Below are positions 9,180 to 57,654 of a stretch of DNA of 64,000 bases, in pieces. The notes under the pieces are model-generated. The model did not search any database and was not told the origin of the DNA. It saw nothing but the letters and a program-made list of their open reading frames with translations. Every line of letters begins with the position of its first letter. Position 1 is the stretch's first letter. This DNA comes from Arthrobacter sp. H16F315 (GTDB lineage: Bacteria > Actinomycetota > Actinomycetes > Actinomycetales > Micrococcaceae). Both the position numbers and the translations under genes were made by a program. Location of the stretch: positions 496,001 through 560,000 of the forward strand of contig NZ_JAMXSS010000002.1 in assembly GCF_024124825.1 (NCBI RefSeq). The letters run 5' to 3'.

Positions 9180-9605
9180 TCAGTGACCGAACCGCGGCGC
9201 TTCCTGCGCCGGGCAGGCGTTCATCACCACGTCCAGTCCTGCCGCTTTGGCACGGGCGGCGGCGGCCTCGTCGATCACGCCCAGCTGCAGCCAGACGGCC
9301 CTCGCGCCGGCGGCGATCGCTTCGTCCACTACGGCTCCGACCCGCTGCGAATTCACAAAGCAGTCCACAACGTCAAGGGCCTGGCCGGACGTCGGGATGT
9401 CCGCCAGCCTGGCGTAGCCGGTCTCACCGTGGACGGCCTCCCCGGGCAGGTTTACCGGGACGATCTCCATCCCGAGACTGTCACGGATAAACAGGGACGT
9501 CTGATATGCCGCCCGCCATTGATTCGTCGACAGTCCGACGATGGCCCAGCGCCCCTTCTCGCGCAGGAGCCGTTCGATGACTGCGGGGTCGTTCACATGG
9601 GTCAT
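9180..9605 (-). CDS. CoA-binding domain protein (CoA_binding_2)
   Basis: A 141-residue Rossmann-like CoA-binding domain protein. The nucleotide-binding segment WAIVGLSTNQWRAAY is near the N-terminus, VPVNLPGE follows, and the C-terminal signature is AVWLQLGVIDEAAAARAKAAGLDVVMNA (residues about 103-130) with the family Cys in NACP. Function is uncharacterised beyond CoA or nucleotide binding. It is divergent from the S-box operon, and a paralogue ends that operon at 17.4 kb. The start ATG at 9605 has no strong ribosome-binding site. Confidence 0.85.
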   Translation of the reverse strand: MTHVNDPAVIERLLREKGRWAIVGLSTNQWRAAYQTSLFIRDSLGMEIVPVNLPGEAVHGETGYARLADIPTSGQALDVVDCFVNSQRVGAVVDEAIAAGARAVWLQLGVIDEAAAARAKAAGLDVVMNACPAQEAPRFGH

Positions 9606-9729: not shown

Positions 9730-9758
9730 TTGGGCAAAACCGGCAATTCCGTTTTAGT
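9730..9758 (+). promoter_or_regulatory. candidate sigma-70 promoter of the first S-box operon
   Basis: TTGGGC (9730-9735), a 17-bp spacer, then TTTAGT (9753-9758), with the riboswitch RNA beginning a few bases later at about 9762. The second S-box at 21.7 kb is preceded at the same distance by TTGCGC-N17-TTAAGT. That shared layout is the main support; the individual hexamers are weak. Confidence 0.4.
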
Positions 9759-9761
9759 AGA

Positions 9762-9936
9762 AGGTGACCATCCCGAGCGGCCGAGAGACCTGGATCGATG
9801 AAGCCGCAGCAACCCTGGTCGCCGGAGTTCCTCCCTTGGCTCCGGCGATAACAAGGTAAGAGCCGCGGGAACGGCCGGATTGACCATCCGGCCGAGCGGC
9901 TCCTTCCGTAGGGTGCTACTGCCAGGACCGATGGAG
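9762..9936 (+). promoter_or_regulatory. SAM-I (S-box) riboswitch upstream of the organosulfur operon
   Basis: Conserved S-box elements appear in order: ccatc (9768-9772) forming P1 with gatgg (9930-9934), gagcggccgagagacctgg, then gatgaagccgcagcaacc and, near the 3' end, ggtgctactgccaggacc. These match the SAM-I junction (CGCAGCAACC...GGTGCTA). Binding of S-adenosylmethionine should lower expression of the genes that follow. The P1 3' strand runs into the ribosome-binding GGAG (9933-9936) of the ABC ATPase, so translational masking is a plausible mechanism. The middle region is long and contains an extra perfect 9-bp hairpin (9873-9895) with a ttgac-type loop. Confidence 0.9.
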
Positions 9937-9942
9937 TGCCCC

Positions 9943-10800
9943 ATGACTACTGCCCTGTCCGCCCCCGCCCCGGCGACGTCCTACGACGCCGCCCGAGCCG
10001 CCCGCCGCACCCCGGCATTGCCGGTTGCCTTCCGATCACTGCGCCGCACCTTCGGAGCCGGCGCCGCGGCGCACACCGTCCTGCGCGACGTCAACTTCGA
10101 AATCCGGGCCGGCGAAGTCCTCGCGATCCTCGGCACCTCCGGGTGCGGAAAGTCCACGCTGCTCCGGGCCGCCGCCGGGCTCGACTCCCCCACCGCCGGC
10201 AGTGTTGAGATCGACGGCACACCCGTCCAGGGCATCGACTCCCGCTGCGCTTTCGCCTTTCAGGAACCGCGCCTCCTGCCGTGGCATACCCTGCAAGCCA
10301 ACATCGCGATCGGCCTGCCCGCAGGCATCAGCGCCAGGGACGGAAAGGCTAAGGTGGCCCGGCTGCTTGAACTTGTGGGCCTCAAGGAGTTCGCCAAGCA
10401 CCGGCCCCGCGAAGTATCCGGCGGCATGGCCCAGCGCGCATCCCTGGCCCGCGCGCTCGCCCGCAACCCCGGTGTCCTGCTGCTGGATGAACCGTTCGGG
10501 GCACTCGACGCGCTCACCCGGATCAAGATGCAGGACCTGCTGCTGGAGATCCACCGAGTCGAGCCCACCACTGTGCTGCTTGTGACCCATGACGTCGACG
10601 AGGCCCTCCAGCTTGCCGACCGCATCATCGTCCTGGGCAAAGAAAGCGGGCCTGGTTCCGGATCCGCCGCGGCCGTGACCGGCGCGACGATCGTTCGCAG
10701 CGCTGTGGTGCCCGGCGCGCGGCCCCGGGGCCGCGGTTCCGTGGAACTGGCCAGCCTGCGGACCTCGCTCCTTCAGTCCCTCGGCGTCGGCGGCCATTAG
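9943..10800 (+). CDS. ABC transporter ATP-binding protein, sulfonate/nitrate/taurine type
   Basis: ATPase of an SsuB/TauB-like importer, 285 residues. The ATG at 9943 is chosen because GGAG lies at 9933-9936; upstream in-frame starts (9931 and a TTG at 9880) fall inside the riboswitch. Walker A is GTSGCGKST (64-72), the signature is SGGMAQRAS and Walker B is LLLDEPFGALDA, followed by VTHDVDEAL with the switch His. The C-terminal tail of about 50 residues is Gly/Ala-rich. It is the first gene under the S-box and is followed by the binding protein and permease. Substrate is inferred from the neighbouring sfnG-like gene as an organosulfur compound (alkanesulfonate or similar), not proven. Confidence 0.93.
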   Translation: MTTALSAPAPATSYDAARAARRTPALPVAFRSLRRTFGAGAAAHTVLRDVNFEIRAGEVLAILGTSGCGKSTLLRAAAGLDSPTAGSVEIDGTPVQGIDSRCAFAFQEPRLLPWHTLQANIAIGLPAGISARDGKAKVARLLELVGLKEFAKHRPREVSGGMAQRASLARALARNPGVLLLDEPFGALDALTRIKMQDLLLEIHRVEPTTVLLVTHDVDEALQLADRIIVLGKESGPGSGSAAAVTGATIVRSAVVPGARPRGRGSVELASLRTSLLQSLGVGGH

Positions 10801-10939
10801 CAGCCCGCCGGCGCCCGAACGCCGGCCCGAATGCCGCTGACCGGCCCGCGCCGCCTCCTGTTACACCGCGAGTTTTTGCTCCGGCACTTCCCATCCACGT
10901 TGCTTCACTTCCGCATTTTTCACTTCCCAGAGGATCGCC

Positions 10940-11977
10940 ATGTCATTCGCCCGCACAACCACCCGCCGTTCAGTAGTGGCGGCCCTCGCCGCCTCCGCCG
11001 CCCTTGCTCTTACCGGCTGCGTTGCGGGCGAAGGATCCTCCGTGGCCCCCGCCGCCGCAGTCTCGGGCGGCACGCTTAATATCGACTTCGCCACCTACAA
11101 CCCGCTGAGCCTGGTCATCAAAAAGAAGGGCTGGCTCGAGGCCGCACTCAAGGACCAGGGTGTCACCGTGAACTGGGTCCAGTCCGCGGGCTCCAATAAG
11201 GCGAACGAGGCGCTGCGTTCCGGCGCGATCGACGTCGGTTCCACGGCCGGATCTGCCGCGCTGCTGGCCCGTGCCAACGGTTCCCCGATCAAGACGATCG
11301 ACATCTACTCGCAGCCCGAATGGTCCGCGCTCGTCACGGGGCCCTCCTCCGGGATCGCCACGGTGGCCGACCTCAGGGGCAAGTCCGTTGCCGCGACCAA
11401 GGGTACCGACCCGTACTTCTTCCTCCTGCAGTCCCTCGCCGAAGCCGGACTTTCGGCCAAGGACGTCACCGTGCAGAACCTGCAGCACGCGGACGGACGC
11501 ACCGCACTGGAGAACGGCGCCGTGGATGCCTGGGCCGGCCTCGATCCGATTATGGCCGGCGCCGAGAAGAACGGTGCAAAGCTGTTCTACCGAAACGTGT
11601 CCTTCAACAGCTACGGCTTCCTGAACGCGAACGAGTCGTTCCTGGCCGCTAAGCCGAAGCAGGCGCAGGCCGTCGTTAATGCCTACGAGAAGGCCCGGGC
11701 CTGGGCCGCGGCGAATCCGGACGAGACCGCGCAGATCCTCGCCGACGTCGCGGGCCTCGACGTCGCCATCGCCAAAACCGTGATCCTGGAGCGCAGCAAC
11801 CTCGCCGTCGACCCCGCGCCGGGTGAGGCCCAGCGCAAGGTCCTGGCCAAGATCGGCCCCACTTTCGTTGAGACCGGGGATGTCACCGGCCAGGACAAAA
11901 TCGACACGGCATTGTCGACTCTTCTTGATGACTCGCTGGTGAAGAAGGCGGATGCATCCGCGATCAGGGATTCCTGA
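10940..11977 (+). CDS. ABC transporter substrate-binding lipoprotein, SsuA-like
   Basis: Periplasmic-binding-protein-like lipoprotein, 345 residues, with a signal peptide and lipobox LTGC (lipidated Cys27), so it is tethered outside the membrane. The mature domain begins GGTLNIDFATYNPLS and carries the SsuA/TauA-like pattern EALRSGAIDVGSTAGSAALLA and VADLRGKSVAATKGTDPYFFL. Such proteins bind aliphatic sulfonates, taurine or related small anions. A 139-bp gap separates it from the ATPase gene and holds no recognisable gene. It shares one base with the permease start (TGATG). Ligand is inferred. Confidence 0.92.
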   Translation: MSFARTTTRRSVVAALAASAALALTGCVAGEGSSVAPAAAVSGGTLNIDFATYNPLSLVIKKKGWLEAALKDQGVTVNWVQSAGSNKANEALRSGAIDVGSTAGSAALLARANGSPIKTIDIYSQPEWSALVTGPSSGIATVADLRGKSVAATKGTDPYFFLLQSLAEAGLSAKDVTVQNLQHADGRTALENGAVDAWAGLDPIMAGAEKNGAKLFYRNVSFNSYGFLNANESFLAAKPKQAQAVVNAYEKARAWAAANPDETAQILADVAGLDVAIAKTVILERSNLAVDPAPGEAQRKVLAKIGPTFVETGDVTGQDKIDTALSTLLDDSLVKKADASAIRDS

Positions 11978-12888
11978 TGACAAACCACCGGAATTCGCCG
12001 GGCACCGGCACCAGCGTTGTCGACGGGCGCACTGCAGCCGTCCCCGCACCTCCAGCAGACGCTGCCCGGCCGGCCTCCCCTGGTTCGCGTGCTGGCGGCT
12101 CCCCGGCGAACGGATGGTTCCCCGCCGGGATCCTGGCCAGCCGTTGGGCGCGTCTGCTCCTTGGATTGGTCTTTCCCGCGGCGGTTCTGGCCGCCTGGCA
12201 GGTCTCCACGGCTGCCGGGGTCTTCAGCGTTGTCCAGCTCCCGCCGCCGGAGATGGTGCTGGAGGCAGGCCTTGACCTGCTCCAGCGCGGGCAACTCGGC
12301 CAGCACATCGCGATCTCCACCCAGCGCGTGCTGATCGGCTTTGCTGCCGGCGCGGCCCTTGGCCTGGTGTTCGGGTCACTGGTAGGACTGTCCAAAGTCG
12401 CCGACTCCCTACTGGCGCCGACCATCGGGGCCCTCCGCGCCGTCCCCTCCCTCGCGTGGGTACCGCTGCTTATCCTCTGGATGAAAATCGGCGAGGATTC
12501 CAAGATCACCCTGATCCTGATCGGCGCCTTTTTCCCCGTCTTTACGACCGTCTCCCTGGCGCTGCGGCACGTGGACCGCAACCTGGTGGAAGCCGCGCGC
12601 GCCTTCGGCCTCAACGGGGTGAAGCTGCTGACCACCGTCCAGCTTCCGGCAGTGGTTCCGGCAGTGTTCTCCGGACTCCGGCTCGCGCTGGCCCAAGCCT
12701 GGCTGTTCCTGGTGGCCGCCGAACTCATCGCGTCCTCGATGGGGCTTGGCTTCCTGCTCACGGATTCGCAGAACAACGGCCGCACGGACCGGCTCCTGCT
12801 CGCCATCGTGCTGCTGGCCGTGATCGGCAAGATCACCGACGCCCTGCTGGGCCTGGCCGAGAAATGGGCGGTGAACCGTTGGGCATAA
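11977..12888 (+). CDS. ABC transporter permease, SsuC/TauC-like
   Basis: Inner-membrane permease, 303 residues. An unusual Pro/Ala-rich cytoplasmic N-terminus of about 50 residues precedes the first membrane helix (LLLGLVFPAAVLAAW). A set of about six helices follows, and the conserved ATPase-contacting EAA loop is RNLVEAARAFGLNGVKLL near residue 190-207. Start overlaps the binding-protein stop; the end overlaps the ligase gene by about 25 bases, indicating a tightly packed operon. Confidence 0.92.
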   Translation: MTNHRNSPGTGTSVVDGRTAAVPAPPADAARPASPGSRAGGSPANGWFPAGILASRWARLLLGLVFPAAVLAAWQVSTAAGVFSVVQLPPPEMVLEAGLDLLQRGQLGQHIAISTQRVLIGFAAGAALGLVFGSLVGLSKVADSLLAPTIGALRAVPSLAWVPLLILWMKIGEDSKITLILIGAFFPVFTTVSLALRHVDRNLVEAARAFGLNGVKLLTTVQLPAVVPAVFSGLRLALAQAWLFLVAAELIASSMGLGFLLTDSQNNGRTDRLLLAIVLLAVIGKITDALLGLAEKWAVNRWA

Positions 12889-14858
12889 CCACCGAAACGG
12901 CACCGGCGGGTTTCCCGGTCACAGAACAAGAGCGCCTCTCCTTCTGGGAGGCAGCTGCCCTCCGGCTCGACTGGGAGGAGGTGCCTGGGCAGGCCAGGCC
13001 CTGGCACACCACCCACCGCTGGATCCCGGCAGACGGAGCTGCCGGCACCGGCCCGGGAATCACCTGGTTTGAGGGCGGAAGGCTCAACGTCGCATCCAAC
13101 TGCGTCGACCGCCATGTAGCGGCGGGACGCGGGGACAAGGTGGCGTTGCACTTCGAGGGCGAACGCGGGGACCGGCGCACCATCAGCTACGCCGAACTGC
13201 AGCGCGAGGTCTGCCGGGCTGCCAACGCCCTGCTTGCCCTGGGTATCGGCAAGGGCGACCGCGTGGTCATCTATCTCCCGGTCATCCCCGAAACCATCAT
13301 CATCACCTTGGCCGTGGCACGCATCGGCGCCGTCCACTCGCTGGTTTTTGGCGGTTTCTCCGCCGAAGCACTCAAATTCCGGGTAGAGGACACCGGTGCG
13401 AAGCTGCTGGTCACCACCGACGGCCAGTTCCGCCGCGGCGAGGCCGTGCCGGTCAAGGGCAATGCGGACGCCGCCGTGGCCGGCAACAATGCGATCGAGC
13501 ATGTCCTGGTAGTCAACCGAACCACCACGCCGGAGCTTCTGGCGACCGTCCCGATGACCGAGGGCCGCGACGTGTGGTGGCATAACGCCGTCGGGCGGGC
13601 CTCCGAGGTCCACGAAGCCGAAGTGTTCGACGCCGAAACGCCGTTGTTTATTATGTACACCTCCGGGACCACGGGAAAGCCCAAGGGCCTGGTGCACACC
13701 TCCGGCGGCTACCTGACACAGGCGTCCTGGAGCTTCGAGCACCTCTTTAGCAATCCGGACCCCGCAGTCCGCGACCGGGACGTTCACTGGTGCACGGCTG
13801 ACCTCGCCTGGGTCACCGCCCACACCTATGAGCTTTACGGTCCGCTCTCCAACGGAGTCACCCAGGTCATTTTCGAGGGCACCCCCAACACTCCGCATCC
13901 GGGCCGGCACTTGGAAATCATTGAGCGCTACGGCGTGACGCAGTACTACACCGCTCCCACCCTGGTCCGTTCGCTGATGGGCTGGTTCCCCGACGGCGTC
14001 CCGGCCAGCTACGACCTGTCCTCCATCCGCCTGCTCGGCACCGTCGGTGAGGCCGTCAACCCGGAAGCATGGCGTTGGTTCCGGCAGAACATCGGTGCCG
14101 GAACCGCACCGGTCGTTGACACCTGGTGGCAGTCCGAAACCGGCGCCACCATTCTCTCCCCCGCCCCAACCGACGCCGGCTTTAAGCCCGGCTGTGCCGC
14201 CCGGCCCCTGCCCGGCGTCAGCACCCGGATCGTGGACGACGCCGGCGACACTGTGCCGCCCGGCGTCCAGGGCTTCATTGTGGTGGACGCTCCGGGTCCC
14301 GCCATCGCCCGGACCGTCTGGGGGAACCCGCAGCGCTACTACGATTCGTACTGGCGCCAGTACGCGGCGCAGGGGTGGTTCCTCGCGGGGGACGGTGCCA
14401 AATACGACGACGACGGCGACATCTGGATCCTCGGACGGGTGGACGACACCCTCAACGTCTCCGGACACCTGCTCTCCACGATCGAGATCGAATCAGCCCT
14501 CGTCGCACACCCGGACGTGATGGAAGCCGGCGTCTGCCCCGTCGCGGATCCGAAGACCGGCCACGCAATCGTCGCGTTCGTCGTTCTGAGGGAAGCGGCG
14601 GCTGCCGAGTACATCGCGTCCGAACTGAAGGCGCACGTTGCGACTCAGATCGGGCCGATCGCTAAGCCGCGCGACGTCGTTGTGGTTGCCGATGTGCCCA
14701 AGACCCGCAGCGGCAAGATCATGCGCCGGCTCCTGACCCAGCTATTCGAAGGCACCACGCTCGGCGACACCACGTCCTTGCAGAACGAACCGTCGATCGC
14801 CGGCATCCAGACCGTCTTGCGCGAACGCACAACCACCCCTGAAATACCCCAGAAGTAA
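12864..14858 (+). CDS. acetyl-CoA synthetase-like AMP-forming acyl-CoA ligase
   Basis: ANL-superfamily ligase, 664 residues, which activates a carboxylate with ATP and CoA. I take the ATG at 12864, inside the end of the permease gene; a TTG at 12879 is the alternative. Seen: N-terminal ACAS-type region (WFEGGRLNVASNCVDRH), P-loop-like YTSGTTGKPKGL, DTWWQSETG and the C-terminal catalytic Lys in TRSGKIMRR. The Trp pair in DTWWQSETG is typical of acetyl/propionyl-CoA synthetases and implies a short acyl substrate. Its place between a sulfonate-type transporter and sfnG is unusual; perhaps it activates a short-chain acid released from the sulfur compound, but this is inference. Confidence 0.85.
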   Translation: MGGEPLGITTETAPAGFPVTEQERLSFWEAAALRLDWEEVPGQARPWHTTHRWIPADGAAGTGPGITWFEGGRLNVASNCVDRHVAAGRGDKVALHFEGERGDRRTISYAELQREVCRAANALLALGIGKGDRVVIYLPVIPETIIITLAVARIGAVHSLVFGGFSAEALKFRVEDTGAKLLVTTDGQFRRGEAVPVKGNADAAVAGNNAIEHVLVVNRTTTPELLATVPMTEGRDVWWHNAVGRASEVHEAEVFDAETPLFIMYTSGTTGKPKGLVHTSGGYLTQASWSFEHLFSNPDPAVRDRDVHWCTADLAWVTAHTYELYGPLSNGVTQVIFEGTPNTPHPGRHLEIIERYGVTQYYTAPTLVRSLMGWFPDGVPASYDLSSIRLLGTVGEAVNPEAWRWFRQNIGAGTAPVVDTWWQSETGATILSPAPTDAGFKPGCAARPLPGVSTRIVDDAGDTVPPGVQGFIVVDAPGPAIARTVWGNPQRYYDSYWRQYAAQGWFLAGDGAKYDDDGDIWILGRVDDTLNVSGHLLSTIEIESALVAHPDVMEAGVCPVADPKTGHAIVAFVVLREAAAAEYIASELKAHVATQIGPIAKPRDVVVVADVPKTRSGKIMRRLLTQLFEGTTLGDTTSLQNEPSIAGIQTVLRERTTTPEIPQK

Positions 14859-14866
14859 GGAACACC

Positions 14867-16096
14867 ATGACTGACATCAGCAATGTGGCCCGTCTATCCG
14901 AACCGCTCAAGTTCGCCTACTGGGTTCCGAATGTCTCCGGCGGCCTCGTCGTTTCCACTATCGAACAGCGCACCGGCTGGGACTTCGAGTACAACAAGAA
15001 GCTGGCCCGGATCGCGGAGAATTCCGGCTTCGAATACGCCCTGACCCAGACGCGCTATGCCGCCTCCTACGGCGCGGACAAACAGCACGAGGCCACCTCC
15101 TTCAGCCTCGCGCTGCTGGCGGCCACCGAGCGGCTCAAGGTAATCTCTGCCGTCCACCCGGGCATGTGGCACCCCGGCGTACTCGCCAAATTCATCATCA
15201 CCGCGGACCATATCTCCAACGGCCGGGCCGCCGTGAACATCGTTTCCGGCTGGCTTAAGGCGGAGTTCGAGAACTTCGGCCTGGACTGGCTAGAACACGA
15301 CGAACGCTACGTCCGCACCGAGGAGTTCATCCGCGTCCTCCGCGGACTCTGGACCGAGCAGGAGTACAGCCAGTCCGGAAAGTATTACAACATCAACGGC
15401 TTCACCCTGAATCCGGCCCCGGTGGACGTGCCAGGCCGGGCACACCCGGAGATCTTCTTCGGCGGAAACTCCACTGCTGCGCAGGCCACGGCAGGCCGGG
15501 TCGCCGACTGGTACTTCTCCAACGGCAAGGACCTGGAAGGCTTCAAGGAGAACATCGCCGGCGTCGTGGCTTCCGCGGCAGAAAGCGGACGCGGGACCGC
15601 ACCCAAGACCGGCGCCACCCAGCCCGCGCTCGCCGCCCCGCGCTTTGGCCTGAACGGATTCGTGATCGCCCGCGATTCCGAACGGGAAGCCCGCGACACC
15701 CTCCGCGAGATCGTCGAGAAGGCGCACAAGCCCGCCGTCGAAGGTTTCCGCGACGCTGTCCAGGAGGCCGGCGCGTCCACAAAGGACGGCAAAGGCATGT
15801 GGGCCGACTCGAGCTTCGAGGACCTGGTCCAATACAACGACGGCTTCAAAACCCAGCTGATCGGCACACCGGAGCAGATCGCCGAGCGGATCGTGGAGTA
15901 CAAAAAGATCGGCGTGAACCTGTTCCTCACCGGCTACCTGCACTTCCAGGAGGAAGTCGCCGCCTTCGGCCAGGACATCCTGCCGATCGTCCGTGAACTC
16001 GAGGCAGACCTCGCCCGCAGGAACGGCAGCGAACTGGATCTCTCCGGCACACCGGCGGCCTCGGCCACCCCCACCCCCGGGCTGGTGAACGCGTAA
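14867..16096 (+). CDS. sfnG: SfnG-like FMNH2-dependent dimethylsulfone monooxygenase (LLM family)
   Basis: Luciferase-like flavin monooxygenase of 409 residues. The N-terminal block KFAYWVPNVSGGLVVSTIEQ, then AVNIVSGWLKAEF, WLEHDERYVRTEEF, GNSTAAQATAGRVADWYF and FEDLVQYNDGFKTQLIGTP are, from memory of Pseudomonas SfnG, closely similar to dimethylsulfone monooxygenase, which converts dimethylsulfone to methanesulfinate using reduced FMN. The family also contains SsuD alkanesulfonate monooxygenases; the VPNVSGGLV block favours SfnG. A 25-residue Ala/Pro-rich C-terminal extension is extra. RBS AAGGAA precedes the ATG. No flavin reductase gene is seen in the operon. The stop shares one base with metY (TAATG). 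Confidence 0.85.
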   Translation: MTDISNVARLSEPLKFAYWVPNVSGGLVVSTIEQRTGWDFEYNKKLARIAENSGFEYALTQTRYAASYGADKQHEATSFSLALLAATERLKVISAVHPGMWHPGVLAKFIITADHISNGRAAVNIVSGWLKAEFENFGLDWLEHDERYVRTEEFIRVLRGLWTEQEYSQSGKYYNINGFTLNPAPVDVPGRAHPEIFFGGNSTAAQATAGRVADWYFSNGKDLEGFKENIAGVVASAAESGRGTAPKTGATQPALAAPRFGLNGFVIARDSEREARDTLREIVEKAHKPAVEGFRDAVQEAGASTKDGKGMWADSSFEDLVQYNDGFKTQLIGTPEQIAERIVEYKKIGVNLFLTGYLHFQEEVAAFGQDILPIVRELEADLARRNGSELDLSGTPAASATPTPGLVNA

Positions 16097-17420
16097 TGTC
16101 TGACCGCAAATTTGGTTTCCGCACCCGCGCCCTGCATGCCGGGGGCACCCCGATGCCGAGCACGGCGCCCGCGCCGTGCCGATCTACCAGACGACGTCCT
16201 TCGTCTTCAAAGACACCCAGGACGCCGCCAGCCTCTTCGCACTGCAGAAGTACGGCAACATCTACTCCCGGATCGGCAACCCCACCGTCGCCGCGTTCGA
16301 AGAGCGCATCGCCTCCCTCGAGGGCGGTATCGGCGCTGTGGCCACGTCATCGGGTATGGCCGCGGAATTCATCACCTTCGCCGCGCTCACCCAGGCCGGG
16401 GATCACATCGTCGCCGCCGCCCAGCTCTACGGCGGCACGGTGACCCAGCTGGACGTCACCATGCGCCGCTTCGGGGTCGACACCACCTTCGTCCCGGGGA
16501 CCAACCCGGCCGACTACGCCGCGGCAATCCGGGAGAACACAAAAGCGATCTTCGTCGAGGTGGTCGCCAACCCGTCCTCGGAGATCCAGGACCTTGAAGG
16601 GCTGGCAAAGGTCGCGCACGACGCCGGAATCCCGCTCGTCGTCGACGCCACCTTGAGCACGCCGTACCTCGTGCGGCCAATCGAGCACGGGGCTGACATC
16701 GTGATCCATTCCGCCACGAAGTTCCTTGGCGGGCACGGGACCACCCTCGGCGGTGTTGTTGTGGAAAGCGGCCGCTTTAATTGGGGCAACGGCAAGTTCC
16801 CCATGATGACCGAGCCCGTCGCGTCCTACGGCAACGTCTCCTGGTGGGGGAACTTCGGCGAATACGGGTTCCTCACCAAACTGCGCTGCGAGCACCTCCG
16901 CGACATCGGCCCGGCGCTGTCTCCGATGTCGGCCTTCCAGCTGCTGCAGGGGGTGGAAACGCTCCCCCAGCGCCTCGACGAGCATCTGAAGAACGCCCAG
17001 GCCGTGGCGGAATGGCTCGAGGCGGACGAACGGGTGGCCTACGTGAACTTCTCCGGCCTGCCCTCGCACCCGCACTTCGAACGGGCCAGGAAATACTTGC
17101 CGCTGGGGCCGGGCTCGGTGTTTTCCTTCGGCGTCAAGGGCGGCCGGGCCGCGGGGCAGAAGTTCATCGAGTCCCTGCAGCTGGCCTCGCACCTGGCCAA
17201 CGTAGGAGACTCCCGGACCCTGGTCATCCACCCGGGCTCCACCACCCACCAGCAGCTCAGCCCGGAACAGCTCGAATCCGCCGGAGTCCCGGAGGACCTG
17301 GTCCGGATTTCGATCGGCCTCGAGGACCTTGAGGACATCCTGTGGGACCTCGACCAGGCCTTGGATGCGGCCTCGGAAGAGTCCGCACCCGAAGCGCGCA
17401 CGATCGGAGCGCTGCTATGA
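16096..17420 (+). CDS. metY: O-acetylhomoserine sulfhydrylase-like PLP enzyme (apparent frameshift)
   Basis: Cys/Met-metabolism PLP enzyme of the MetY (O-acetylhomoserine aminocarboxypropyltransferase) type, which makes homocysteine from O-acetylhomoserine and sulfide, or methionine from methanethiol. The ATG at 16096 opens MSDRKFGFRTRALHAGGTP; the frame is lost at the CCCC of 16148-16151, and one extra C restores DAEHGARAVPIYQTTSFVF and a 441-residue protein of normal size. PLP Lys209 is in SATKFLGGHG; SRIGNPTVAAFE and WWGNFGEYGFLTKLR are typical of the long MetY class. It lies directly after sfnG and under the same S-box, which fits sulfur assimilation into methionine. I treat the break as a probable sequencing error. 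Confidence 0.88.
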
Positions 17421-17914
17421 GCCGGGAAGAAAGCCGTACCTGGACCGGGCCGTCCGCACCGGAACGGTTCAACCTGCTGCGCAGCGCCAGGTCCATCGCG
17501 ATTGTGGGTGCCTCGGACAAGCCGTCCCGGGCAAGCTATTTTGTGGCCACCTACCTGCAGTCCTCCACCCCGTACAGGCTGTACTTCGTGAACCCGGTGG
17601 TGAAGGAGATCCTGGGCCAGCCGACGTATAGTTCACTCGCGGACCTGCCGGAGAGCCCGGACATCGTGGACGTCTTCCGCAAGCACGATGACCTGCCGGG
17701 AGTCCTGGAGGAGGCCATCGCGGCCGGAGCCGGAACGCTCTGGCTGCAGCTTGGGTCCTGGCACGAGGAAGTCGCGAAGGAAGCCGAAGCCGCCGGGCTC
17801 GACGTCGTGATGGACCGCTGCGTGAAGATTGAGCATGCCCGGTTCCACGGCGGTCTGCATCTGGCCGGCTTCGATACGGGGGTCATTTCCGCCAAGCGGC
17901 AGGTCCTGGCCTAG
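17417..17914 (+). CDS. CoA-binding domain protein (CoA_binding_2), operon paralogue
   Basis: A 165-residue Rossmann-like CoA-binding protein whose ATG overlaps the metY stop (ATGA). Key segments: SIAIVGASDKPSRASYF for nucleotide binding, YFVNPVVKEILG, and the C-terminal signature TLWLQLGSWHEEVAKEAEAAG followed by LDVVMDRCVKIEH. It is a clear paralogue of the protein at 9180-9605 on the other side of the riboswitch. Frequent association of this domain with MetY-type genes is familiar, but the function is unknown. It is the last gene of the S-box operon. Confidence 0.85.
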   Translation: MSREESRTWTGPSAPERFNLLRSARSIAIVGASDKPSRASYFVATYLQSSTPYRLYFVNPVVKEILGQPTYSSLADLPESPDIVDVFRKHDDLPGVLEEAIAAGAGTLWLQLGSWHEEVAKEAEAAGLDVVMDRCVKIEHARFHGGLHLAGFDTGVISAKRQVLA

Positions 17915-21751: not shown

Positions 21752-21856
21752 AGGTGACCATCCCGAGCGGCCGAGGGACCTGGACCATTGACGCCGCAGC
21801 AACCCCTCCGTTCGCAGCTTGTGGCGGTTCAGGGTGCTACCGCCAGGACCGATGGA
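21752..21856 (+). promoter_or_regulatory. SAM-I (S-box) riboswitch upstream of metE-like gene
   Basis: P1 strands ccatc (21758-21762) and gatgg (21851-21855) enclose the S-box core: gagcggccgagggacctgg, then gacgccgcagcaacc and ggtgctaccgccaggacc. This is a compact, standard-length aptamer, unlike the extended one at 9.8 kb. The RBS AAAGGAA begins at the end of P1 (21855), so ligand binding could block ribosome access. Expected outcome is repression by S-adenosylmethionine. Confidence 0.9.
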
Positions 21857-21869
21857 AAGGAAGCGCCCC

Positions 21870-23078
21870 ATGCACCAGAACACAGACCACATCCGGGCCA
21901 CCCATGCAGGCTCCCTGCCCCGCACCCCTGAGCTCATCGCCGCGAATGAGGCCAAGGACGCAGACGGCATCAGCCCGGAATTCCTGGACCTGCTGGCAAC
22001 CTCCGTGGTGGATGTAGTGCAGCGCCAGAAGGACCTCGGCATCGATATCCCCAACGACGGCGAATACGGACACACGATGTCCAGCTCTGTGGACTACGGT
22101 GCGTGGTGGAACTATTCCTTCAGCCGGCTGGGCGGCCTTGAACCGACCGACGTGGACCGCTGGGCCGACTCCGCGGTGCACCGCTCAAGCCCCGGAAACA
22201 TCGTGCTGACCTCGTTCCCGGACCGGCGCGACAGGCAGAAGTTCAACGAGGCCTACAACGATCCGTCCGCGGGGATCCTCGCGCACCGCAAGAGTGTCAC
22301 GCAACCGAAAATTGCGGGACCGCTGAGCTATACCGGGCAGGCCCTCGTCGGCTCGGATACCGCCAACTTGAGGGCGGGGCTGGCCGCCGCCGGACTCACC
22401 GAGGGCTTCGTGGCTTCCCTCTCCCCCGGATCCTGCGCCCGCGTCGCCAACGAGTACTACAGCAGCGATGAGGAACTCCTCTATGCCTGCGCCGACGCCA
22501 TGCGCGAGGAATACATGGCCATCATCGACGCCGGGCTCACGGTCCAGCTCGACGACCCGTCACTGGCCGAAAGCTGGGACCAGATTAACCCGGAACCGAG
22601 CCTGGCCGACTACCTCAAATTCATCCAGCTCCGGGTCGAAGCCACAAACTGGGCACTGCGCGGGCTTCCACAGGAGAAGATCCGGCTGCACGTCTGCTGG
22701 GGCTCCTGGCATGGGCCGCACACCACGGACATTCCCTTCGCGGACATTATCGGCTCCGTCCTGCAGATTAAGGCAGGCGGTTACTCCTTCGAGGCAGCCA
22801 ACGTCCGCCACGAGCATGAATGGCGGATCTGGGAAGACACCCGGCTTCCGGACGGAAAGGTGATCATCCCCGGCGTCGTCTCCCACGCCACAAACGTCGT
22901 CGAGCACCCGGATCTGGTAGCTGACCGGATCGTACGTTTCGCCCAATTGGTGGGCCGCGAAAATGTGATTGCCTCCACAGACTGCGGTCTCGGCGGCCGC
23001 GTGCACCCGCAAATCGCTTACGCCAAGCTGGAAGCCCTGGGCGAGGGTGCGCGCCGCGCCAGCGCACGGCTCTGGTAG
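21870..23078 (+). CDS. MetE-core cobalamin-independent methionine synthase II family protein
   Basis: A 402-residue protein equivalent to the C-terminal catalytic barrel of MetE, without the N-terminal half; such proteins transfer methyl groups to thiols. The ATG at 21870 follows AAAGGAAG (21855-21862). The zinc-ligand pattern is present: His274 and Cys276 in HVCWGSWHG, Glu308 in SFEAAN and Cys372 in STDCGLGG. The N-terminus RATHAGSLPR is typical of the group that includes epoxyalkane:CoM transferase homologues. The S-box upstream argues for a role in methionine synthesis, methylating homocysteine, perhaps with a donor other than polyglutamyl methyl-THF. The gene is monocistronic. Confidence 0.88.
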   Translation: MHQNTDHIRATHAGSLPRTPELIAANEAKDADGISPEFLDLLATSVVDVVQRQKDLGIDIPNDGEYGHTMSSSVDYGAWWNYSFSRLGGLEPTDVDRWADSAVHRSSPGNIVLTSFPDRRDRQKFNEAYNDPSAGILAHRKSVTQPKIAGPLSYTGQALVGSDTANLRAGLAAAGLTEGFVASLSPGSCARVANEYYSSDEELLYACADAMREEYMAIIDAGLTVQLDDPSLAESWDQINPEPSLADYLKFIQLRVEATNWALRGLPQEKIRLHVCWGSWHGPHTTDIPFADIIGSVLQIKAGGYSFEAANVRHEHEWRIWEDTRLPDGKVIIPGVVSHATNVVEHPDLVADRIVRFAQLVGRENVIASTDCGLGGRVHPQIAYAKLEALGEGARRASARLW

Positions 23079-23251
23079 ATCGGCGGCGGCAGGTCCGCCA
23101 TTTCGCAGGGCTTGATAGACTAATAAGGATCGACTAGGAAATCGGTCCACACCACCTTTTCAAACCGCACCATATTGGGCGTGCCCCGGTGTTAGGCGTG
23201 CCCGCGTACGGTCCGGCAGCTTTACCAATCCCGCAGGAGACTCAGCAATAT

Positions 23252-23884
23252 ATGACAGCCTTGGCCACTGAAAATTCCCGCGAACAGCTTCTGAGCCGCC
23301 GCTATGAAACTAGCGTCGCGGCCGTCAACGAGCTGTGCGACACGCTGCAGGCAACCAAAGCTGGCACGAACGTCCCCTACGTTGACCCGATTCACGACGT
23401 CGATGAGTGCCGCATCATCAGCCTCTTCTCCAACATCGGGACGGAGGACGAGTCTGGTTTTATCACCGCCGGTGATGATGAAGCCGCCACCCGCCTGCTC
23501 GGTGTCCAGTGGAAGCTGGGCCTGCGCCCCGAGTACGTGATGCCGTGGAACGTGCACCCCTGGTACGTCCCGGGCGAGCCGAACGGCAAGTTCACCCCGG
23601 ATCAGATTTCCGCGGGCCTGAAGCCGTTGCTGAAATTCCTCGCTGTGGTGCCCCGCGCCTCGGTTATTGTGGCGCACGGCACCGAAGCCAACCGCCTCGC
23701 GAACCTGCTCCTCAAAACCGAGGTACCCATGATCTGGCGCCGCGGCCTCAAGACCTACAAGGTCCGCTCACTCAGCGGCCGCGCCTTCGCCGGCACCCCC
23801 GCCCGGCAGGAACAGTACCTCGACGAGATGGGCACGGTTTACGCCGACGCCATGGCCCGCACCGGTCTGGCCAAGACCAGCTAG
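23252..23884 (+). CDS. uracil-DNA glycosylase-like protein
   Basis: A 210-residue protein starting at the ATG at 23252 (MTALATEN), with AGGAGA at 23235-23240; the 11-nt spacing is long but no nearer start exists. The sequence matches my recollection of proteins annotated as uracil-DNA glycosylase in Arthrobacter. Candidate active-site segments are YVMPWNVHPWYV near the middle and VIVAHGTEANRLANLLL near residue 150, which resemble superfamily motifs 1 and 2. The canonical GQDPYH of family 1 is absent, so activity is not certain. It would act in base-excision repair. Confidence 0.6.
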   Translation: MTALATENSREQLLSRRYETSVAAVNELCDTLQATKAGTNVPYVDPIHDVDECRIISLFSNIGTEDESGFITAGDDEAATRLLGVQWKLGLRPEYVMPWNVHPWYVPGEPNGKFTPDQISAGLKPLLKFLAVVPRASVIVAHGTEANRLANLLLKTEVPMIWRRGLKTYKVRSLSGRAFAGTPARQEQYLDEMGTVYADAMARTGLAKTS

Positions 23885-56500: not shown

Positions 56501-57240
56501 CGCCGGTGGTCCCGTTCCCACTGCCGACGGCGGCGACGCCGCCGGAACGGTGGCTCGTCCGCGAACTCGACGCCGAAGGTGGTCCAGGTCATCGACAGCT
56601 TGCGCCCGACGGAGCGCCAGCTGGCCAGCGGCCGTGCCGAGACCTGCACCCGCAGCGACGTGGCGGCGATCACCGTCACTTCGGGCGGGATCTGGTAGGA
56701 AATGTCCAGATCGTCGTGGACGAGCGGGAAGCCCCGGTGGACGGAGCCGCGGACGCGGTCCCAGACATCGGACCACATCGCGAAGTTCGAGCCGAACAGC
56801 GGCGGATGCCCCAGCAGCCAGCCGACGGCCCAGAAATATCCCGCAATATAGATGCGCCGGCCCACCCATCGGGCGAAGCGGCCTTCGCCATAAAAATCTG
56901 CGGGGCCGGAAACGGCGGATAGCGGGCCCGCCTCCTGCAGTATCGCCGCTACTCGCTCGAGCCAGTCGGCGGCCGGGATCGAGTCCGTGTCCAGCCGGGC
57001 GATCAGCTCGAAACGGGCTTCATCGAAGCCACACGCCGTGGAGGCGGCGATTCCCGGCAGTTCGACAGCGATCCGCCGGGCGCCAGCGGCGGCGCAAACC
57101 TCTGCGGTGTCGTCAGTGCTGGCATTGTCCACCACTACGATTTCGTCGGCCCGACGGGTCTGGCGGGCGAGTGCGGCCAGGCACACGGCGAGCATGTCAG
57201 CATCGTTCCGGGTAGGGATAACCACCGAGATTGTTGTCAT
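56497..57240 (-). CDS. family 2 glycosyltransferase
   Basis: A 247-residue GT2 enzyme. N-terminal ISVVIPTRNDADMLAVCL, VVDNASTDDTAEV for the nucleotide sugar, a DxD-like LDTDS (manganese site) and a short hydrophobic segment (IYIAGYFWAVGWLLG) that may associate with the membrane. The C-terminus is very Arg-rich (PPFRRRRRRRQW). Acceptor unknown; it may act on a cell-envelope polymer. Monocistronic. Confidence 0.85.
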   Translation of the reverse strand: MTTISVVIPTRNDADMLAVCLAALARQTRRADEIVVVDNASTDDTAEVCAAAGARRIAVELPGIAASTACGFDEARFELIARLDTDSIPAADWLERVAAILQEAGPLSAVSGPADFYGEGRFARWVGRRIYIAGYFWAVGWLLGHPPLFGSNFAMWSDVWDRVRGSVHRGFPLVHDDLDISYQIPPEVTVIAATSLRVQVSARPLASWRSVGRKLSMTWTTFGVEFADEPPFRRRRRRRQWERDHRR

Positions 57241-57398
57241 AGTGCCCCGACTATAGACCCGCGGCGTGGGGAAATGCCCCCGTTAGCCTCTTGCACCATG
57301 GCCCTCGGCCCCGTAGGTTGGGCAACAGCGGACGAATGTCTCCGCAGCCGTTGGCCTCCGGGCCGCCGGAGATCAGCAGCATTTCAGAAGGATATGGC

Positions 57399-57602
57399 AT
57401 GGCTACAGGCACAGTTAAATGGTTCAACGCCGAAAAGGGTTTTGGCTTCATCGCCCCGGATGACGGGTCGGCCGACGTTTTCGCCCACTACTCGGCAATC
57501 GCCAGCAGCGGCTACCGCTCCCTGGACGAGAACCAGAAGGTCGAGTTCGACGTCACCCAGGGTCCGAAGGGCCCGCAGGCTGAGAACATCCGCCCGCTCT
57601 AA
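57399..57602 (+). CDS. cold shock domain protein (CspA family)
   Basis: A 67-residue single cold-shock domain with RNP1 KGFGFIAP and RNP2 VFAHYSAI; starts [14 protein letters not shown]. Binds single-stranded RNA or DNA and acts as an RNA chaperone. The ATG at 57399 has AAGGA about 9 nt upstream. The 158-bp 5' region after the divergent glycosyltransferase start holds the promoter and an untranslated leader, in which I could not assign a structure. Confidence 0.95.
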
Positions 57603-57654
57603 ATACCCCGGATAGCAGCATCGGCCAGCCGGCCGCCATGCTTTCCCCAAGACC

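Follow-up and report, generated by a model that had tools for sequence, protein, structure and literature searches.

Is the scavenging of organic sulfur in a bacterium controlled directly by S-adenosylmethionine (SAM), and if so, by what kind of RNA? The question is raised by a stretch of 64,000 nucleotides (nt) from Arthrobacter sp. H16F315 (assembly GCF_024124825.1, contig NZ_JAMXSS010000002.1, positions 496,001 to 560,000), referred to below as the window; the source genome comprises 4.2 Mb in 5 contigs. In the window, a leader is followed by genes in the order ssuBAC-acs-sfnG-metY and a gene of a coenzyme A (CoA)-binding protein, all on the + strand, and the initial annotation had seen in this leader an S-box, proposing that organic sulfur is scavenged only when SAM is low. 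We consider this central proposal likely to be right. With a probability of about 0.85, judged from sequence, the leader works as a SAM-I type switch pared down to its core, which senses SAM and turns translation OFF. Additionally, helix P3 of the leader encloses a conserved RNA domain, which is a new element and the more surprising part of the locus, more so than the link to sfnG; on this domain, as on the missing helix P4 and a second S-box in the window, the initial annotation was silent.

The S-box claimed ahead of the operon was recovered with the Rfam model RF00162, the best match to the leader within its clan, at 38.5 bits (E-value 3.4e-7 over 601 bases and 3.7e-5 over the whole window). 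It was also recovered, at 98.1 bits (E-value 1.5e-24), with the model R1, which was made from the second S-box of the window itself and from six relatives whose P3 is short. The leader and its start site have the following parts:

9765-9937, + strand: SAM-I (S-box) aptamer without P4 and with a long P3 insert (RF00162, 38.5 bits)
9768-9772, + strand: 5′ strand of P1, CCATC, which pairs with GATGG at 9930-9934
9777-9807, + strand: P2 with a kink-turn-like internal loop (RF00162 alignment, invariant columns)
9808-9917, + strand: P3, enclosing the nested domain, with the equivalents of A45 and A46 at 9811-9812 and of U57 at 9914
9933-9945, + strand: Shine-Dalgarno sequence GGAG (9933-9936) and ATG of ssuB (9943-9945), the GG lying within the 3′ strand of P1
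9730-9758, + strand: promoter-like pair of TTGGGC (9730-9735) and TTTAGT (9753-9758), 17 nt apart (genus conservation)

The strand CCTGG in the P2 loop (9789-9793) can pair with CCAGG (9922-9926) to form the pseudoknot PK-1; the kink-turn in P2 and PK-1, both of them features of SAM-I, are predicted by sequence. The pairs of P1 are each standard in 59-60 of the 60 full S-boxes from other genera. The SAM-pocket residues G11, A45, A46 and U57, in T. tengcongensis numbering, and the P1 pairs A-U, U-A and C-G are intact in the window; the columns of the four residues are invariant in all 60 full S-boxes of other genera, and 47 of the 54 matches in the genus set carry all four. Apart from three substitutions at A46 that are taken up below, the exceptions in this set are four weak matches (loci L048, L050, L069, and L075 at 1816). 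These comparisons support the view that the leader holds an aptamer of the SAM-I type whose SAM contacts are intact.

The overlap between P1 and the start site is a regular feature of these leaders. In the window, the AUG of ssuB lies 8 nt past P1; in all 42 genus leaders that could be parsed by pattern, out of 49 genus loci, the first ATG stands 6-7 nt past GATGGAG, and in S-boxes of other genera AG or AA comes next after GATGG in 58 of 61 rows. At the other end, a hexamer T[T/G/C]TAGT terminates 7-10 nt ahead of ACCATC in 41 of the 42 genus leaders; a scan for the generic promoter consensus did not list the pair at 9730-9758. From the position of this pair, the transcript would begin at about the first riboswitch base, and together with the spacing of the ATG this suggests that the leader is the riboswitch alone. 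We propose that plentiful SAM would bind between P1 and P3 and stabilize P1, whose 3′ strand GAUGG would sequester the GG of the Shine-Dalgarno GGAG, so that ribosomes would not start on ssuB. If the genes are transcribed as one operon, tight coupling would then keep the importer, the acetate-CoA ligase, SfnG, MetY and the CoA-binding protein all low. When SAM is low, P1 would open, the operon would be translated, and sulfur from the putative sulfone or sulfonate substrates would be fed into homocysteine. A translational OFF switch in which P1 overlaps the Shine-Dalgarno sequence is a known SAM-I mechanism and not a new one, SAM-I riboswitches whose P1 holds the ribosome site on its 3′ side being already described (PMC2258182). 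It is improbable that the switch works mainly on transcription or on the stability of the mRNA rather than on ribosome access. Several S-boxes of other genera indeed had no nearby start codon among the frames picked for them, but in the window P1 is separated from the AUG by only 8 nt, and a pattern scan of the leader gave no terminator-like site.

The link between the S-box and sfnG is conserved among relatives. An SfnG of at least 88% identity was found in 51 of 101 genus genomes; after subtraction of the window's own locus and one fragment, 49 genus loci were examined, and in 42 of them an S-box stands ahead of the operon (R1, E < 1e-20). The genes ssuA and ssuC lie between the leader and acs in 21 of the 49. 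In a set of 80 named sfnG loci, an S-box was found upstream on the same strand in 65, including two weak ones (L222, L280), a count that reaches up to 7 kb upstream and for which the intervening genes were not checked one by one at every locus. The 15 misses are the genus members L216, L229 and L234, the short contigs L232 and L239, and ten loci of other genera (seven from Brachybacterium, the others from Brevibacterium, Georgenia and Cellulomonas), among which L271 also lies on a short contig. Moreover, in 26 of the 80 loci, L280 included, the S-box is directly ahead of sfnG, at most about 125 nt from the SfnG match, which makes the link independent of the operon reading. The association noticed in the window is shared by most of these loci. 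The direct link between SAM sensing and sfnG also appears to be unreported, as the initial annotation had supposed: a literature search that lacked most subscription journals brought up no relevant report of a riboswitch at sfnG, none of a SAM riboswitch linked to alkanesulfonates, and none of a riboswitch linked to sulfonates in Micrococcaceae or to methionine and SAM-IV in Arthrobacter. If the proposed mechanism is true, SAM would directly control, with no protein regulator, how a large group of soil bacteria scavenges sulfones and sulfonates.

S-boxes that match R1 are present in 205 of 245 genomes (27 of 32 genera) of the family and in 112 of 248 genomes (51 of 85 genera) of the order, the family's own included. 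In 40 regions from other genera, the genes found close to or downstream of them were ssuBAC, acs, sfnG, metY or metE-like genes, variously combined; some had none of the query genes nearby. In 118 of 120 distinct S-boxes, collected by a pattern search of the fetched loci, PK-1 and P1 are spaced as in the window, the spacing being one base shorter in the other 2, and because of this short spacing P4 is absent from all 120. The linkers of at least 12 nt that appeared among R1 matches in the count for other genera apparently result from the pattern catching an earlier GCCA, an error of which the count of 120 is free. The missing P4 was considered as a novelty and rejected as such. R1 finds P4-less S-boxes in the same 112 of 248 order genomes, and all 25 full R1 S-boxes, with a shorter P3, in 20 loci pass the RF00162 gathering score; the P4-less form is therefore common in the order and covered by Rfam.

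The long P3 insert is a different matter. In S-boxes ahead of ssuB it measures about 86-98 nt. The following elements were delineated in it:

9817-9909, + strand: nested conserved RNA domain (model R2), about 93 nt (alignment, covariation, model searches)
9819-9848, + strand: nested helix A, 9819-9825 with 9842-9848 (compensatory pairs)
9848-9856, + strand: conserved linker AUAACAAGG, consensus AYA.CRAGG, whose first A pairs in helix A
9860-9902, + strand: nested helix B, 9860-9864 with 9898-9902 (compensatory pairs)
9872-9894, + strand: hairpin C with the loop UUGACCA, of which GACCA recurs in insert loops of the genus

Inserts were compared in the alignment A4 (31 inserts from four genera) and in A5, which holds 20 of these, eleven having been dropped by hand: L056, L061, L075 and L078, shifted in helix B, and seven close to kept rows. 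Changes on both sides of a pair were observed in helix A at 5 of 7 pairs in the 20 rows and at 6 of 7 in the 31, and in helix B at 4 of 5 pairs in the 20 rows, with 98.0% of the cells paired; on the 31 rows, some of which are shifted there, helix B is weaker (3 of 5 pairs, 74.8% paired). The covariation score of the 20 rows was 0.258, compared with 0.099 for shuffled alignments, and that of the 31 rows was 0.202, compared with 0.108; in both cases none of 500 shuffles scored as high, and controls with slid helices reached at most 0.093 and 0.108, respectively. The count of pair types on the 31 rows was matched by 36 of 500 shuffles. For 26 matches in named genomes the score was 0.289 versus 0.122, these rows having been aligned by the model and being biased toward it. 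Outside the helices, the bases of A4 that are invariant or nearly so are the GG that follows the P3 stem, a CC within a loop, the linker AYA.CRAGG, a further GG, and CCGU. That the nested domain is under selection is well supported. Speaking against its helix B, RNAalifold applied to all 31 inserts gave helix A and not helix B, in place of which it put a GGR/UCC pairing that hardly varies. A pseudoknot between the helix A loop (invariant CC) and the linker (invariant GG) was rejected, as the two pairs that every row could form show no variation and pairings of greater length are inconsistent. A T-box-like reading of the UGG in P3 was likewise unsupported, UGG being partly in the stem.

The nested domain is much more restricted than the S-box. 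R2 matches were found in 40 of 245 family genomes, which belong to 5 of 32 genera, and in 7 of 297 order genomes, all 7 being members of the family Micrococcaceae itself. Among 68 distinct copies, collected with a pattern that requires the linker motif (so that conservation of the linker there, other than in A4, is partly by construction), 64 lead an operon of the ssu-acs-sfnG type. An ssuB-like frame is preceded by 58 of them, and 6 more were assigned to the same operon by gene context: L073 and L206, which are probable wrong-frame picks, and L041, L060, L066 and L221, whose operons are apparently without ssuBAC, L221 being assigned by its distance to sfnG only. The other four copies come from a single genus (g8), and the operons behind them start with a transporter of the major facilitator superfamily or a peptide-type ATP-binding cassette (ABC) transporter. 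Two of these operons were scanned; both continue with a monooxygenase of the NtaA/DmoA family, at 495 and 492 bits (cut-off 280), and with an SfnB-like protein that, at 301 and 305 bits, stays below the cut-off of 431. As the copies stand at two kinds of operon, the nested domain follows organosulfur scavenging and not one gene; it was seen only ahead of organosulfur operons.

The motif GACCA of hairpin C was considered as a part of the nested domain and rejected. It occurs in 33 of 42 genus inserts, mostly as a hairpin loop YGACCAY, despite differing stems and insert architectures, and 7 of the 9 genus inserts that lack it are at most 32 nt long; it is absent, however, from all 8 aligned copies of other genera and therefore looks genus-specific. 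The loop repeats the P1 5′ strand UGACCAU, and one idea is that it might compete for the Shine-Dalgarno strand.

Our first guess for the nested domain, to which we would give an even chance, is that it is a structural brace replacing P4, which packs on other helices and stabilizes P3 where P4 is missing, with no signal of its own. In support of that, P4 is absent from the 120 distinct S-boxes without exception, and SAM-IV is likewise without P4 and has other peripheral contacts (PMC6890682). However, 71 of these 120 P4-less S-boxes manage with at most 30 nt in P3 (at least 59 nt in 43), and a brace leaves the restriction to organosulfur operons unexplained. That restriction, to two kinds of operon with unrelated transporters and against a background of 71 S-boxes with a short P3, would fit a second sensor, which responds to a further signal, be it a sulfur metabolite, a protein or an RNA, by altering P3 and with it the SAM pocket. 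We regard this as a second and only tentative guess. It would also fit the two covarying helices and the near-invariant linker in four genera, and a SAM-I riboswitch with two signals has a precedent in Xanthomonas (PMC7270179). Yet a brace would be conserved too, and no stand-alone copy was seen: all 14 R2 matches in nine loci and all 26 in the named loci lie inside R1 matches, in searches that could miss stand-alone copies, as the P3 stem is part of R2 and the filters of the large searches are strict. No Rfam family except RF00162 matched the nested domain, either in the window's insert (E-value up to 10) or in 8 loci (E-value up to 1). A two-input riboswitch, in which the P3 of a minimal, P4-less SAM-I aptamer would have acquired a second RNA sensor, retained only where cells invest in organic sulfur, and which would open the operon only at low SAM and in the presence of a further, sulfur-related signal, is possible but rather unlikely. 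Whichever role it has, the domain is a small and clear target for asking if the aptamer of a riboswitch can accommodate a second sensor.

The genes that the leader would control are as follows:

9943-10800, + strand: ssuB, sulfonate-type ABC ATPase (best family PRK11247, below its cut-off)
10940-11977, + strand: ssuA, substrate-binding protein of the SsuA family (TIGR01728, 211.7 bits, cut-off 163.5)
11977-12888, + strand: ssuC, permease (best family PRK11365, below its cut-off)
about 12885-14858, + strand, start codon uncertain: acs, enzyme of the acetate-CoA ligase type (TIGR02188, 766 bits, cut-off 725)
14867-16096, + strand: sfnG, dimethylsulfone monooxygenase (TIGR04021, 618.3 bits, equivalog cut-off 382.95)
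16096-17420, + strand: metY, O-acetylhomoserine sulfhydrylase, with an apparent frame change near 16150 in the assembly
17414-17914, + strand: CoA-binding protein (PF13380)

Families and junctions agree with the arrangement claimed in the initial annotation, an ABC importer, an acyl-CoA ligase, SfnG, MetY and a CoA-binding protein encoded by overlapping or near-overlapping genes: neighbors overlap or are at most 8 nt apart, with the exception of a 139-nt gap between ssuB and ssuA. As to the importer, the binding protein passes the SsuA-family cut-off, and the ATPase and permease match sulfonate-type families below the cut-offs. The nearest solved chain to SfnG is 8t0u, a dimethylsulfone monooxygenase (E-value 5e-129). 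MetY matches TIGR01326 with 565 bits (cut-off 495) over profile positions 22-417 in a frame from 16176, its first residues being in another frame. Upstream of the leader, a divergent gene (9180-9605, - strand) encodes a further CoA-binding protein (PF13380) that resembles the operon-terminal one and is present in 47 of the 49 genus loci.

Several observations weigh against the leader being a working SAM switch for all of these genes. Its score of 38.5 bits is below the RF00162 gathering score of 44.4, so that a default Rfam search of the window returns no match; the two S-boxes of the window appear once the threshold is lowered, and the S-box of the initial annotation is then confirmed. P4 is part of the SAM-I consensus and is absent, 3 bases standing between PK-1 and P1 instead. 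U replaces A46 in the genus leaders L043, L044 and L049, which are otherwise strong matches. Furthermore, 7 of the 49 genus loci retain the operon but have no sound S-box (L050 has a weak R1 match of 43.5 bits, and L048, L055, L058, L064, L069 and L071 have none or a remnant), which indicates that SAM control is dispensable in some lineages. The 139-nt gap could carry signals of its own. Finally, metY is split over two frames in the assembly; a genome of the same species (L032) has one intact frame, and the frame change could be a sequencing error.

Some of these points would follow if the leader were a decayed S-box that has lost SAM binding and whose conserved sequence reflects ancestry. The score below gathering would agree with this, as would relatives eroded at the same place (L048, L050) or with a small element there (L055, L058, L064, L069, L071). 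We nevertheless hold such decay to be highly improbable, as the window has kept all pocket residues and these hardly vary between genera, even though the P3 insert has diverged, with changes that compensate each other. Among 10 S-boxes with the nested domain that were scored with RF00162, one was clearly over the gathering score (46.2) and two were at 44.4. The leaders of L048 and L050 look like eroded S-boxes. In L055, L058, L064, L069 and L071, which are acs-sfnG leaders, the S-box is replaced by a leader of 80-87 nt between the same promoter-like site and the Shine-Dalgarno sequence; four of the five contain CGACCAU (L071 differs), which the predicted folds of L058, L064 and L069 place in a hairpin loop.

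The preferred reading, a translational SAM-I switch, can be set beside known systems. In Pseudomonas, the dimethylsulfone route encoded by sfn and msu genes is under protein regulators. The window shares SfnG with that route but has a SAM riboswitch and a metY gene in the operon, and no MsuC or MsuD was found in the genome. With SAM-I as described by RF00162, the leader shares P1, the kink-turn-like loop of P2, PK-1, P3, the SAM contacts and a ribosome site that falls within the 3′ strand of P1; it differs in the lack of P4, replaced by a 3-nt linker between PK-1 and P1, and in the conserved domain, about 93 nt long, that P3 encloses. SAM-IV (RF00634), which itself occurs in the same genome in 4 copies, is described in PMC6890682 as having PK-1 and no P4, with PK-2 and P5 lying 3′ of P1, and a 4-nt turn. 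The leader likewise has PK-1 and no P4, but P5 and PK-2 were not found in it, the AUG lying 8 nt past P1. In the Xanthomonas SAM-I riboswitch, the closest idea found in print, the expression platform also binds uncharged initiator tRNA (PMC7270179). Translational control would be common to both, and a second input is shown there and a candidate here; the second sensor of Xanthomonas, however, is the expression platform, in contrast to the extra domain of the window, which is inside the aptamer.

The route of the sulfur beyond SfnG is less well covered than the initial annotation had it. The product of SfnG is methanesulfinate, and the onward route leads through MsuC and then MsuD or SsuD (PMC13352529). 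No SfnB/MsuC-type enzyme was recognized in the genome (best match 72 bits, cut-off 431), and no second SsuD/MsuD-like protein was found, a query of the genome with SfnG returning only itself; the same query does find relatives of 26-34% identity in other genomes. The genome has 6 luciferase-like stretches, five of them without assignment here, and family scans recognized no flavin reductase among the operon genes. As the enzymes that would convert methanesulfinate to sulfide for MetY were not found, calling the organosulfur-to-homocysteine pathway complete is unjustified. The acetate-CoA ligase may recycle the acetate released by MetY into acetyl-CoA for MetX.

The leader is not the only SAM riboswitch of this genome. 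Downstream in the window are:

21755-21858, + strand: second S-box, without P4 and with a short P3 (RF00162, 44.0 bits)
21867-23078, + strand: MetE-like gene (PF01717; below the cut-offs of all five NCBIfam matches)

Additionally, the genome contains four SAM-IV riboswitches, all over the cut-off, which precede metX, a second metY, a cluster with a gene of the O-succinylhomoserine sulfhydrylase type (metZ-like), and a gene of a SufS-family protein. Thus, SAM-I and SAM-IV coexist in one genome: these methionine genes are predicted to be under SAM-IV, and SAM-I precedes both the organosulfur operon and the gene resembling metE. If this is true, one genome would use two SAM riboswitch classes, SAM-IV for core methionine genes and SAM-I for organosulfur genes. 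After the MetE-like gene, the region 21755-23884 also holds a gene of a 231-amino-acid protein without a Pfam or NCBIfam family. Elsewhere in the window, the cspA thermoregulator family is weakly matched at 57230-57645 (+ strand), with 38.8 bits for a cut-off of 78.

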